DNA from: an uncultured Chloroflexota bacterium
GTDB lineage: Bacteria > Chloroflexota > Dehalococcoidia > Lucifugimonadales > UBA1127
DNA length: 64,000 nt
NCBI GenBank assembly: GCA_913045315.1
Contig: CAJWQJ010000001.1
Coordinates: 1 to 64,000, forward strand
Reading direction: 5' to 3'
Part shown: piece by piece, positions 52,491 to 57,329 of the stretch
Layout: the number at the start of each line of letters is the position of its first letter
Position numbering within the stretch: position 1 is the stretch's first letter
The notes under the pieces: model-generated
Databases searched by the model: none
Told to the model about the DNA's origin: nothing
Seen by the model: the letters and a program-made list of their open reading frames with translations, nothing else
Position numbers and translations under genes: made by a program

Positions 52491-53780
52491 TTAAGATTCC
52501 GTCTGATTTTGTTTAGGTGGTGCTGCTATCCAGTATAACAAGATTGCTAATGCTGTTATGACTGCAAACACCCAAATAGCCTCAGTATAGGACTGTTTTT
52601 CGTCAAAAACCCAACCAGCATAAATTGGTCCAACTACTGCTCCGGCAGAGTAAATTAGCCCCATTAATCCTCGTAAAGTGGCAAATCGCTCTCTGCCAAA
52701 ATAGTCTCCAACAATTGCCCAATTAAGGATTCCTGCACCATATGAGAAAGCCCATAGCCCTATAAATGCGTATAGATGCCAAAGTGTTGTGGCTTCAGCA
52801 AGAATAATTAATGACAGTAATTGAAGAATTAACAAGATCGCAATTACTTTTCTTTTGGCGTATTTATCACCTAACCAGCCAACTGCCATTCTTCCTGGGA
52901 TACTTACAAAAACCAACAAGCCTACTGCTCCTCCAGCAGCTACAGTACTCATTCCTCTGTCTTGTAATATTGGTGCCAGATGAACCATTACTGCGGTATG
53001 TGAAGTGAATCGCAAGGTAATTGCAGATATAAGCAACCACATGGATTGAGTGCGAAAGGCTTCAGTAACAGTAAAATTATGTTCTTCAACATAGACGGAT
53101 GAAGTGCCTAGAGAATCGCTATCGGTTTGATCTGACATTGACGAAATCGAATCACCATCTGGTAAGAGTCCTAAATCCTCAGGCTTATGTCGAATAAATA
53201 AAGTCAATGGCCAAATTACAAAGAGCATTCCTATTCCAGCTACCAAAGCTGCTTCTCGCCAACCCCATCCATCAATAATAAAAGCAAGTGCTGGAACAAT
53301 AATTGATCCACCTATACCTACCGAAACGGATATTGTAGCCATTGCGGTAGAACGTTTCTTTACAAACCAATTGTTTGCTACAGCCATAGCAGGATGAAAA
53401 AATCCTCCATTTATACCCATAGCGATTATTCCCACATAGACTAATAAAAAGCTTGTGTAATTGTTAACAAATATTGCCCAGATTATGAATCCTATTCCAG
53501 CAACTGGAATTCCAATGGCCATTATTTTTCGTGATCCATATCGGTCTATAAGAAAACCAACAATTGCACCTTCGAAAGCACCCTCAAGTCTAGTTAACGA
53601 AAATACAATTGATGTTTGTGCGCTTGTAATACCAAGCTCATCTTTTAGCGGATTGAAAAACATTGTAAAACCGTAGAAATAGACGCCGCCACCATAGGCT
53701 CCTATTACTGAACAGGCAACAAGAACCCACCAACCACGATAAATTTTACCAACAGTAAACAACATTGGAAGAAATGGCAT
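52491..53780 (-). CDS. MFS transporter, monocarboxylate/OFA-like
   Basis: A 429-residue, 12-helix carrier starting at the ATG of MPFLPMLFTVGK, seven bases after GGAG. It has YRGWWVLVACSVIGAYGGG, the loop motif DRYGSRKIMAIG, FVKKRSTAMATISVSVG after helix 4, and the central RHKPEDLGLLPDGD loop shared with the other three MFS proteins here. The substrate is unknown. It is divergent from the PEPCK-like gene. Confidence 0.9.
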   Translation of the reverse strand: MPFLPMLFTVGKIYRGWWVLVACSVIGAYGGGVYFYGFTMFFNPLKDELGITSAQTSIVFSLTRLEGAFEGAIVGFLIDRYGSRKIMAIGIPVAGIGFIIWAIFVNNYTSFLLVYVGIIAMGINGGFFHPAMAVANNWFVKKRSTAMATISVSVGIGGSIIVPALAFIIDGWGWREAALVAGIGMLFVIWPLTLFIRHKPEDLGLLPDGDSISSMSDQTDSDSLGTSSVYVEEHNFTVTEAFRTQSMWLLISAITLRFTSHTAVMVHLAPILQDRGMSTVAAGGAVGLLVFVSIPGRMAVGWLGDKYAKRKVIAILLILQLLSLIILAEATTLWHLYAFIGLWAFSYGAGILNWAIVGDYFGRERFATLRGLMGLIYSAGAVVGPIYAGWVFDEKQSYTEAIWVFAVITALAILLYWIAAPPKQNQTES

Positions 53781-53853
53781 TAGTTCACTCCGTTGGGATT
53801 GTAGCAGCATTTGGCATATATAGAAAATATCTAAGGTAATTGATGAATTTTTC

Positions 53854-53882
53854 TTGAAAATTCATGGTTGAACAAGTAGAAT
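53854..53882 (+). promoter_or_regulatory. Sigma-70 promoter of the PEPCK-like gene
   Basis: TTGAAA (53854-53859) and TAGAAT (53877-53882) with a 17-base spacer. Transcription would start around 53889, leaving a leader of about 40 bases before the TTG at 53929. An inverted repeat GAATTTT/AAAATTC overlaps the -35. Confidence 0.6.
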
Positions 53883-53928
53883 ATAACCAATAAATACCCC
53901 TTAACATTTGGCATCAGGAGGTGCACTT

Positions 53929-56235
53929 TTGTCGAGTGCTAAAAAAGCAGTTGAGCTCTGGGGTGGTGGGGGCTATGGACAAAGATCGACACTTGCGGGG
54001 CCAACGGTAGAACCTGAATTTGAGAGGGCATTAGATGAATTAGTTGCTACAGCTAAATCAGGACATGCTAATACAACCGAATACAATAACCCAAATGATG
54101 AATGGCTTAGAAAAAACTTACGAATTTTTCAGGATTTTACTGAAGATAAAAAACAACTCATATTAAATGAGGCTGAAAAACTTCAAAAGGAGGCTGAAAA
54201 ACTTAATTCTGAAGGGAAAGCTGCTACAAAAGCTTGGCCTGATGCAGGCATACAACTCGATAGTGGTGGCTTTGGGTTTTTTAGCCAATTAGGTGTTGCA
54301 AGACGGCCTGATCTTACTCAGTATTTTGTTGATGGTTTTCCTCAAAACAGAGATGCACTTTCATTCAGCTCGGAAAATCAAAAACTTTTTGCTGAAATTT
54401 TCCCATATATTTCAAGGGCTTTTTCTCATGCATTTGATAGGGGTGATACTGTTGTTCAAACTGACAGGCTAATCGGAGATTCTCCGGATACTTCTTATCA
54501 TGCTAGACAGCTTTTATATGGAGACCATTATTTACACTTGCCGTATATGTGGCGTCAGCTTACTTTTGATATATCACCCGAACGGCAATTTCAAACACCA
54601 TCAATAATGGAAGTTTCATTGCCGAATTGGCTTGATGACCTTCCACTCCCAAATTCTCTTAGGGAAAAAATTGAAAATGCTGGCTTAACCCAACTTGTGT
54701 TTAAAGCACCTACAAAAGGACTCTCACTCCACCTTGGTTTTGATTATCTTGGGGAACATAAAATGGGGCCACTATCCATTGCAATGTTTAAGGTAAAACA
54801 AGAAGGAGGACTGGCAATTCAGGCTGCACTAAGTGTTGCTCGCGTAAGAGGTGCCGATTCTAAGAAAGCAAACATTGCAGTTGTTACCCCTGGTCCTTCT
54901 CTTCATGGTAAAAGCACACTTACAATAATGCTAGATTTTGTTTCTAGCGAATGCTCTAAACTCCTTAAAATAGAAGATGATCCTGAAGAAGGAGTTTATC
55001 CAATGAATGATGATATTATCATGTTGCGACCAATAGATGCACCACAAGAGGCACCTGCATCTGGAAATAATGTTACTATAACGCACAGTATTGAAGGGAC
55101 TGAAAACAACTTTTATGCTGTTCCATTTGGCTTAACTAGAGAAGATGATCCAATAACGTATGACGTTTGCAGAGGCGAACCTGGTAACCCTAATCCTTAT
55201 GAAATAATGGAAAATGTTCCTGTTGATCCTATAACAGGCATCCCTGATACACTTAGAAATCCAGTTAGAAATATGCGAATGATTTTATCAAGACCTCGGT
55301 TGCTTAAACGAAAAGGGGTAGATAAAGTTCTTAGTTCCGTAACTGGTGGTTCAGTTTCTGATGCTGTTCATGTTCCAATGAATTCTGTTGATGCGATATA
55401 TTGGCAAGGAGTGATGAGGCAAAATACTGTCCTTCCACCTCTTGTACGTTTATCTCGTGAGGAATATATAAGAGCATTAATGTTCGGTGAAGCTGTTCAA
55501 ACTGGTGCTGCAACTGGTGCTATAGGACGGCCTTATGTTGAATATTTTTCCGATCCCTTCATCATCGGCATAGAAGATGAAAATGCTAATGCCATGTACA
55601 AAATTCTTAATGAGATTGAATCTGGAGGAATGAAGCAAAGTTTTACTATGTTCAATACTGGGGGAGTTGGTGCAGATAATAATGAATCAACTTCAGGAAC
55701 AAGGTACAAAAAAATTACAAGGGAAATTACATTAATGCTTCAGGAAGCACTCCTAAGAGGGGCACTGAAATTTGAACGAGATGATCTTCTTGGTGTAGAA
55801 GTAGCTGTTGCTGTTATCAACAATAACGGCGAGGAAGTTCTGGATCTAAGAACTGAATGGTTACCAAGAGAAATTTATGGTAAAGAAGAGTACAAAAAGC
55901 GCGTTCTTGCTTTGAAACAAACCAGATACTATGGAAAAGACAGTCAGGATAAGGCTGGAATATTAAGATATACTAAAGTTGATAGTTCGATTTTTGATCT
56001 AAATGATATTCCCTTTCCTCAGACCGAAAGAGAATTGTCTTGGATCCTTTCATTTTATTGGTCGCTGGACAAAGCATTTGATGATATTTCTTCAATTGTT
56101 AATAATTTGGATCAAGGAATTGCACCAACCCAAGAATTATTAAATGCTATAAGTGCAAAGTATAAAGAAGCTGTTGAATCAGGGCTCGTTATATCTGAAG
56201 AATCACACAATGTATTGGTTACAATGGGGCTTTAA
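53929..56235 (+). CDS. Divergent ATP-type PEP carboxykinase-like protein
   Basis: The 768-residue product aligns with ATP-dependent PEPCK (about 540 residues) over its middle and C-terminal parts. Landmarks, in order: GEHKMGPLS, a P-loop written TPGPSLHGKSTLT (320-332) in place of G-L-S-G-T-G-K-T-T, the acidic motif PMNDDIIM, EGTENNFYAVPFGLT, NPVRNMRMIL, VLPPLVRLSREEY, FGEAVQTGAATGA and FNTGGVGA. The Asp pair and an Arg are retained; the PEPCK metal-site His appears to be Gln. About 200 N-terminal residues are extra. The start is TTG at 53929, five bases after AGGAGGTG. It may be a PEPCK or a kinase with another substrate. Confidence 0.82.
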   Translation: MSSAKKAVELWGGGGYGQRSTLAGPTVEPEFERALDELVATAKSGHANTTEYNNPNDEWLRKNLRIFQDFTEDKKQLILNEAEKLQKEAEKLNSEGKAATKAWPDAGIQLDSGGFGFFSQLGVARRPDLTQYFVDGFPQNRDALSFSSENQKLFAEIFPYISRAFSHAFDRGDTVVQTDRLIGDSPDTSYHARQLLYGDHYLHLPYMWRQLTFDISPERQFQTPSIMEVSLPNWLDDLPLPNSLREKIENAGLTQLVFKAPTKGLSLHLGFDYLGEHKMGPLSIAMFKVKQEGGLAIQAALSVARVRGADSKKANIAVVTPGPSLHGKSTLTIMLDFVSSECSKLLKIEDDPEEGVYPMNDDIIMLRPIDAPQEAPASGNNVTITHSIEGTENNFYAVPFGLTREDDPITYDVCRGEPGNPNPYEIMENVPVDPITGIPDTLRNPVRNMRMILSRPRLLKRKGVDKVLSSVTGGSVSDAVHVPMNSVDAIYWQGVMRQNTVLPPLVRLSREEYIRALMFGEAVQTGAATGAIGRPYVEYFSDPFIIGIEDENANAMYKILNEIESGGMKQSFTMFNTGGVGADNNESTSGTRYKKITREITLMLQEALLRGALKFERDDLLGVEVAVAVINNNGEEVLDLRTEWLPREIYGKEEYKKRVLALKQTRYYGKDSQDKAGILRYTKVDSSIFDLNDIPFPQTERELSWILSFYWSLDKAFDDISSIVNNLDQGIAPTQELLNAISAKYKEAVESGLVISEESHNVLVTMGL

Positions 56236-56252
56236 TCTTAGCCGAGGTTTTT

Positions 56253-57329
56253 ATGAATGAAATCTCGATAGATTCATTATTCGATTCTGATAGATGGACT
56301 GTTATTATTCAACTGGCCATTTTTTTGTTTGCACTTCTACTCTTAGTATTTCTCATGAATTTAATACTAAAACGGGTTGCCAGGCTGATTGAAAATGGAA
56401 CGAATCAGAGAATTGGTGCTGAACTAGTTAGAGCAGTTAGAAAGCCCTTGATTGCCATTATGTTTCTTCAGGGTTTGTATTGGGCATTTAATTATTTCAT
56501 TGATTCGAGGGATGAATTTTTTACTTATATAAACAATATTGTTGTTGTAGCTTCAATTTTTCTTGGATCGATAAGCTTAGTTGCCCTATTGCGTCTGTTA
56601 TTCAGCGGATATCTCGATAACAGGTCAGACAAAGACTTAGGTTTAGGTGAGGCGAGAATTCTTCCCACTCTTCGAAGAATAACCACAATTTCAGTTTATA
56701 TTCTTGCGATAATGCTATCTCTTGACTATATGGGCATCGCAATAAGTCCGATTCTCGCTGGATTTGGAATAGGTGGTTTGGCGGTTGCACTTGCTGTTCA
56801 ACCTACGCTCAGTAATTTTTTTGCAGGTACTTATCTGGTTTCGGGCAATGTAATTACACCGGGTGACTTTGTTGAATTAGAAAATGGATTTCGCGGGTAT
56901 GTTACAGAAATTGGATGGAGAAGCACTAGATTACGGACTCCATTTAATAATGCTGTAGTTATACCTAATTCACGACTTTCGGACAGCATGATTACTAACT
57001 ATAATAATCCTGATGCTCCTATCGGGGTGTTAATTGAATGCGGGGTAAGTTATGAGAGCGACCTTCAATTTGTTGAAAAAACAACTATAGAAGTTGCTCA
57101 AAATATTGTTCGAGAATTACCAGAGGCAATTAATGATACCCCTTGGTTTTCCTTTAGTCGTTTCGGGGACTCAAACATAGACTTTTGGGTTTGGGTTACT
57201 GCTAGAGATTACCTTTCTTCTTTCAAGGTTCAGTCAGAAATTATTAAAGCGCTACACGGAAAATTTACTGAACATGGAATCGTCATTAACTACCCAGTTC
57301 GAACTGTATATATGGGCGAAGAACATTAA
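56253..57329 (+). CDS. MscS-family mechanosensitive channel
   Basis: A 358-residue small-conductance-type channel with about five hydrophobic segments (about 14-40, 60-78, 87-110, 140-160, 163-185). The pore helix is rich in Gly/Ala (ILAGFGIGGLAVALAVQPTLSNFFAG), and the MscS beta-domain has GDFVELENGFRGYVTEIGWRSTRLRT followed by VVIPNSRL. It lies 17 bases after the PEPCK-like gene, with GAGG before the ATG, so the two are probably co-transcribed. It likely releases solutes in osmotic downshock. Confidence 0.92.
   Translation: MNEISIDSLFDSDRWTVIIQLAIFLFALLLLVFLMNLILKRVARLIENGTNQRIGAELVRAVRKPLIAIMFLQGLYWAFNYFIDSRDEFFTYINNIVVVASIFLGSISLVALLRLLFSGYLDNRSDKDLGLGEARILPTLRRITTISVYILAIMLSLDYMGIAISPILAGFGIGGLAVALAVQPTLSNFFAGTYLVSGNVITPGDFVELENGFRGYVTEIGWRSTRLRTPFNNAVVIPNSRLSDSMITNYNNPDAPIGVLIECGVSYESDLQFVEKTTIEVAQNIVRELPEAINDTPWFSFSRFGDSNIDFWVWVTARDYLSSFKVQSEIIKALHGKFTEHGIVINYPVRTVYMGEEH

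Follow-up and report, generated by a model that had tools for sequence, protein, structure and literature searches.

The window analyzed in this work, the whole stretch of 64,000 nucleotides from an uncultured Chloroflexota bacterium, contains a gene whose product was originally predicted to keep the landmarks of ATP-type PEPCK despite changes in the P-loop and at the metal site, and which is followed by a gene for an MscS channel. The question raised by this locus is whether the protein is a PEPCK, an enzyme of the same fold acting on another substrate, or part of a solute-stress system that involves the channel. The elements of the locus are as follows:

53854..53882, + strand: sigma-70-like promoter TTGAAA-17-TAGAAT (10/12), of a type whose frequency in the region is not above chance
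53916..53921, + strand: Shine-Dalgarno sequence AGGAGG, 7 nt 5' of TTG 53929
53929..56235, + strand: gene for the PEPCK-like protein, 768 aa, TTG start; supported by Pfam, NCBIfam, AlphaFold and fold comparison
56253..57329, + strand: gene for an MscS-type mechanosensitive channel, 358 aa (Pfam MS_channel); a neighbour only, its pairing not being conserved

The predicted reading frame was borne out as one gene of 768 aa, and its start is best placed at TTG 53929, next to the Shine-Dalgarno sequence. As for the promoter, which had been called good, the TTGAAA-17-TAGAAT sequence is indeed there at 53854, but such matches are no commoner in the region than in shuffled sequences (11 vs. 10.4). The MscS gene shares the strand of the PEPCK-like gene, lies 17 bp downstream of it, and is followed by a tRNA-Asp on the opposite strand. 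Residue numbers below count from an in-frame upstream TTG at 53908 (775 aa); subtracting 7 gives the numbering from the likely start.

The relationship to PEPCK is supported by both profiles and structure. The Pfam profile PEPCK_ATP (PF01293) matched the window protein with 36.5 bits against a gathering cut-off of 26.5, so the description of the family as unrecognised was an overstatement; a six-frame search of the window's genome with the same profile found a single stretch, at 21.3 bits. With NCBIfam NF006821 the protein scored 140.4 bits, below the cut-off of 369, as did homologues from a Planctomycetales-labelled MAG (L076, 127.7 bits) and a Deltaproteobacteria MAG (L050, 135.2 bits). Nevertheless, profile-profile comparison with PEPCKs of the NF006821 type aligned 463 columns over both lobes with a probability of 99.9%. 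The AlphaFold model of the window protein (pLDDT 84.9, pTM 0.86) matched only PEPCKs or PEPCK-containing models among the 50 matches listed from the PDB, the best being E. coli PEPCK (1AYL; E 2e-22, target-normalised TM 0.66). Model, fold comparison and profile-profile alignment thus agree on a PEPCK fold with N- and C-lobes. Sequence searches of the PDB returned no match to the window protein with either a single-sequence or a profile query, so the link to solved PEPCKs is visible only through fold comparison and intermediate profiles. In the tree the subfamily was monophyletic, on a branch of ~6 changes per site, with a warning from the program about long-branch joins. Our literature searches found no description of the subfamily. 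A viral or plasmid origin was considered and rejected: we found no viral relatives of the protein, and its plasmid matches were only distant haloarchaeal PEPCKs.

In E. coli PckA, the active-site metal is bound by K213, H232 and D269. A metal site of Lys, His and Asp has been described for PEPCKs (PMC4370629). We used MAFFT to align the window family with E. coli PckA (in a sequence consistent with the PDB alignment), a canonical PckA from the SAR202 order and 36 sequences of the NF006821 type, and counted invariance over 72 homologues with 51-61% identity to the window protein. The residues and motifs located in this way are:

54301..54303, + strand: R132, equivalent to E. coli R65, the substrate Arg; invariant in 72/72
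54751..54765, + strand: GEHKM motif, with K285 equivalent to K212 and M286 to K213 (metal ligand lost)
54820..54822, + strand: Q305, equivalent to E. coli H232, metal ligand replaced
54892..54918, + strand: P-loop GPSLHGKST (canonical GLSGTGKTT)
55009..55014, + strand: D368-D369, equivalent to E. coli D268-D269, kinase-2, metal ligand kept
55276..55278, + strand: R457, equivalent to E. coli R333, kept

R132, and not the R133 aligned by MAFFT, was taken as the equivalent of R65 because its R-x-P context matches R65-S-P67 and because it is invariant. The residues that handle oxaloacetate and phosphate (R65, Y207, K212 and R333 in E. coli) are all present in the window protein. Y207 (Y280), K212 (K285), S250 (S331), K254 (K335), D268/D269 (D368/D369) and R333 (R457) are kept, T255 appears as Ser (S336), and K602, I603 and T608 on the adenine side are conserved. 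The P-loop differs from GLSGTGKTT while preserving GK[ST]. Of the metal-site triad Lys213/His232/Asp269, one in three is kept (M286, Q305, D369). The P-loop and the His-to-Gln exchange had been read correctly in the original prediction, to which we add two substitutions: K213 to Met (M286) and K288 to Val/Met. M286, Q305 and the GPSLHGKST P-loop are identical in all 72 homologues, which argues for a real, constrained subfamily. The window protein is a member of a real and constrained PEPCK subfamily that is divergent and altered in its active site, and the prediction of a distinct PEPCK-fold family holds (140 against 369 bits with NF006821).

The protein has 228 residues more than E. coli PckA. 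By residue correspondences, ~60 of them lie before R65, ~82 after T455 and ~86 internally, so the ~200 residues once placed at the N-terminus reduce there to ~60, the remainder being C-terminal (~80) and internal (~85).

Among known systems, the NF006821 type (PRK09344.1-3; Chloroflexota and haloarchaeal PEPCKs of 500-600 aa) shares with the window family the both-lobe profile alignment and R65, Y207, K212, S250, K254, D268, D269 and R333, but it keeps H232, K288 and the GLSGTGKTT P-loop; the NF006821-type proteins that we scanned score 393-637 bits, above the cut-off, whereas the window family stands at 140 and is ~200 residues longer. Four SAR202-order PEPCKs of this type (L100, L101, L102 and L103) also carry Met in place of K213 while retaining His232 and a normal P-loop, a natural intermediate state. 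The shared K213-to-Met change may perhaps reflect common descent, in a tree that carries the long-branch warning. The ATP-PEPCKs of E. coli and Thermus (PckA, EC 4.1.1.49) share the fold, with target-normalised TM-scores of 0.65-0.69 for most entries, and the active-site Arg/Tyr/Lys/Asp/Arg set; at 15-18% identity by structural alignment, the window protein differs from them in K213M, H232Q, K288V, PSLH for LSGT in the P-loop, and the extra N- and C-terminal parts. GTP-PEPCK (EC 4.1.1.32) has the same superfamily fold as the window protein, and its profile PF00821 is unmatched in the carrier genomes. The loss of the Lys ligand has a precedent in the PCK of Aeropyrum pernix, since the PCK-specific motif of that enzyme lacks its second Lys, a metal ligand, and one metal site has possibly been lost with it (PMC2684135). 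Going by the text of that paper, no change of the His ligand or the P-loop like that in the window family is reported for it. A literature search for mutagenesis of the K213/H232 ligands found none.

When GTDB genomes were scanned for two patterns, the query returned 77 loci, nearly all in SAR202/Dehalococcoidia, the strays being the Deltaproteobacteria and Planctomycetales-labelled MAGs mentioned above. SAR202 bacteria are uncultured and abundant in the dark ocean. Their genomes have been interpreted as having gluconeogenesis (PMC5864207). In the window's order (SAR202/Dehalococcoidia), 68 of 197 sampled genomes had profile matches; four of NF006821 type (G054, G121, G153 and G180) were set aside by hand, leaving 64 carriers, about a third. 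Five genomes of the same family lack the gene, so its distribution is patchy. Three copies (G122:C84:12273-14540, G142:C49:36689-38983 and L075:2008-4209) have an in-frame stop or a split frame, perhaps through decay or assembly error.

We also looked for a canonical PckA elsewhere, as had been proposed, and found no second PEPCK in the window's own genome (89% complete). Neither canonical ATP-PEPCK, NF006821-type PEPCK nor GTP-PEPCK (PF00821) was found in any of the 64 carriers. Ordinary PEPCKs are rare in the order (7/197, against 64/197 for the divergent subfamily): one canonical ATP enzyme (G015), the four of NF006821 type and two GTP enzymes. None of these seven genomes is a carrier, but with P=0.06 for no overlap by chance, mutual exclusion is not statistically firm. 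In keeping with a PEPCK function, about half of the carriers (35/64) have no match to PPDK or PEP synthase (PPS) at E<1e-15. Complementarity with these two enzymes was rejected: their presence does not differ between carriers (29/64) and non-carriers (53/133; P=0.54). PEP carboxylase occurs in none of the 64 carriers and in 19 genomes confined to one other GTDB family, which makes its absence from carriers clade-confounded. Genome content therefore sets neither reaction nor direction. Among the non-carriers, many have none of the PEP-forming enzymes that were looked for, so the notion that the subfamily must be the source of PEP is unsupported. At the thresholds used, searches for PEPCK, PPDK and PEP synthase found none of them in many of the 197 SAR202-order genomes.

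Two kinds of genomic context bear on function. Malate synthase lies within 1.5 kb at 12 loci, at six of which it follows the PEPCK-like gene directly with a gap of 27-168 bp, and is adjacent by position in 11/11 sampled carriers of one genus (g65). This adjacency belongs largely to one SAR202 clade and so counts as one piece of evidence rather than twelve; the gene itself is present in 114/197 genomes of the order, and only its adjacency is informative. In the Planctomycetales-labelled MAG, a single 1828-aa ORF (L076:4902-10385) joins GAPDH (aa 204-559), TIM (756-960) and a PEPCK-like part with the signature motifs of the subfamily. This fusion, seen in one MAG, supports a glycolytic or gluconeogenic setting; among 78 relatives of the MAG, no full-length subfamily member is present. 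The TIM part begins at position 53 of the profile, and the N-terminal segment of TIM comes after it (profile 1-61), so that the TIM looks circularly permuted, although the segment match is weak (16.5 bits, cut-off 20.1). It contains the IAGNQK, GHSETR and AYEPRW motifs, and the same genome encodes a separate ordinary TIM.

With moderate confidence, we favour a SAR202/Dehalococcoidia-centred subfamily of ATP-using PEPCK, or a close functional analogue at the oxaloacetate/PEP node, with a remodelled metal site. The retained substrate and phosphate residues, together with the malate synthase neighbour and the GAPDH-TIM fusion, favour an oxaloacetate/PEP (gluconeogenic) reaction over one on a different substrate. 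ATP would bind via the P-loop, oxaloacetate (or PEP) would be held by the retained Arg/Tyr/Lys/Arg set, and (de)carboxylation would be coupled to phosphoryl transfer. The transition-metal site appears rebuilt, since Met and Gln take the places of K213 and H232, two of its three canonical protein ligands. The metal might be held by D369, possibly with H284 and H333, candidate ligands because they are invariant in the family and lie beside the K212 equivalent and inside the P-loop, respectively; alternatively, the enzyme could work with the nucleotide Mg2+ alone. Reaction, direction and replacement ligands are all putative here. Against a simple PEPCK, a classical enzyme should be damaged by the loss of K213, H232 and K288 (a phosphate contact), the malate synthase link is limited to one clade and the fusion to one MAG. 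We put forward tentatively the further idea of a superfamily enzyme with a newly evolved metal site (candidates H284, H333 and D369). It would either carry out PEPCK chemistry in the absence of the canonical Mn2+ site or catalyse another reaction of the carboxykinase or kinase kind, and in many SAR202 bacteria it would be the enzyme of the PEP node. If the protein is a working PEPCK, it shows that the family can do without, or replace, the Lys and His metal ligands that are regarded as almost universal in it; otherwise, the PEP node is misannotated in SAR202 bacteria.

The same changes could instead mean that the PEPCK fold serves a kinase or carboxykinase acting on another 2-oxo acid or on a small-molecule acceptor, its metal site having been adapted to that substrate. 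Such an enzyme would fit the observation that K213, H232 and the core of the P-loop are replaced in 72/72 sequences and K288 is lost as well, on a fold whose phosphate-binding residues persist; it would also fit the very long branch separating the subfamily from other PEPCKs. We find it doubtful, given that the oxaloacetate-site residues R65, Y207, K212 and R333 are kept and that neighbours and fusion indicate central carbon metabolism. A PEPCK using PPi, polyphosphate or another NTP in place of ATP is improbable: the lost K288 and the changed P-loop are parts that handle nucleotide phosphates, but the GKS/T of the P-loop, the DD pair and the adenine-side K602, I603 and T608 are retained, and a review describes PPi-PEPCK (EC 4.1.1.38) as evolutionarily unrelated to the ATP and GTP enzymes (PMC8100219). 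It is still harder to see the protein as a catalytically dead paralogue that has taken on a regulatory or structural function, to which the missing K213 and H232 ligands might point, when the residues that bind nucleotide and substrate do not vary among 72 sequences 51-61% identical to it and no active PEPCK was found alongside to be regulated.

Coupling to the MscS channel in a solute-stress module, suggested by the 17-bp gap and shared strand in the window's genome, is very improbable, since no MscS homologue occurs within ~8 kb (less on short contigs) at any of ~80 other loci, at E<1e-5 or even E<10. The channel is present as described, but its pairing, on whose conservation the original prediction had made the link depend, recurs at no other homologous locus; the MscS neighbour is a coincidence of one genome and no conserved part of the system, and co-transcription specific to this genome could be the sole remaining form of coupling. 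Neighbours vary by clade: a peptidase-C26 protein with GyrA in one; a zinc-type dehydrogenase and, after it, SufT- and Mrp-like genes in another; and, as further clade-specific neighbours, an RraA-like protein, a DHDPS-family protein and a class-V aminotransferase (GyrA, SufT and Mrp were named by eye). In the window, the PEPCK-like gene is flanked by a divergent gene (52491-53810, - strand) for an MFS transporter whose nearest types, below cut-offs, are those for lactate/monocarboxylate and oxalate/formate.
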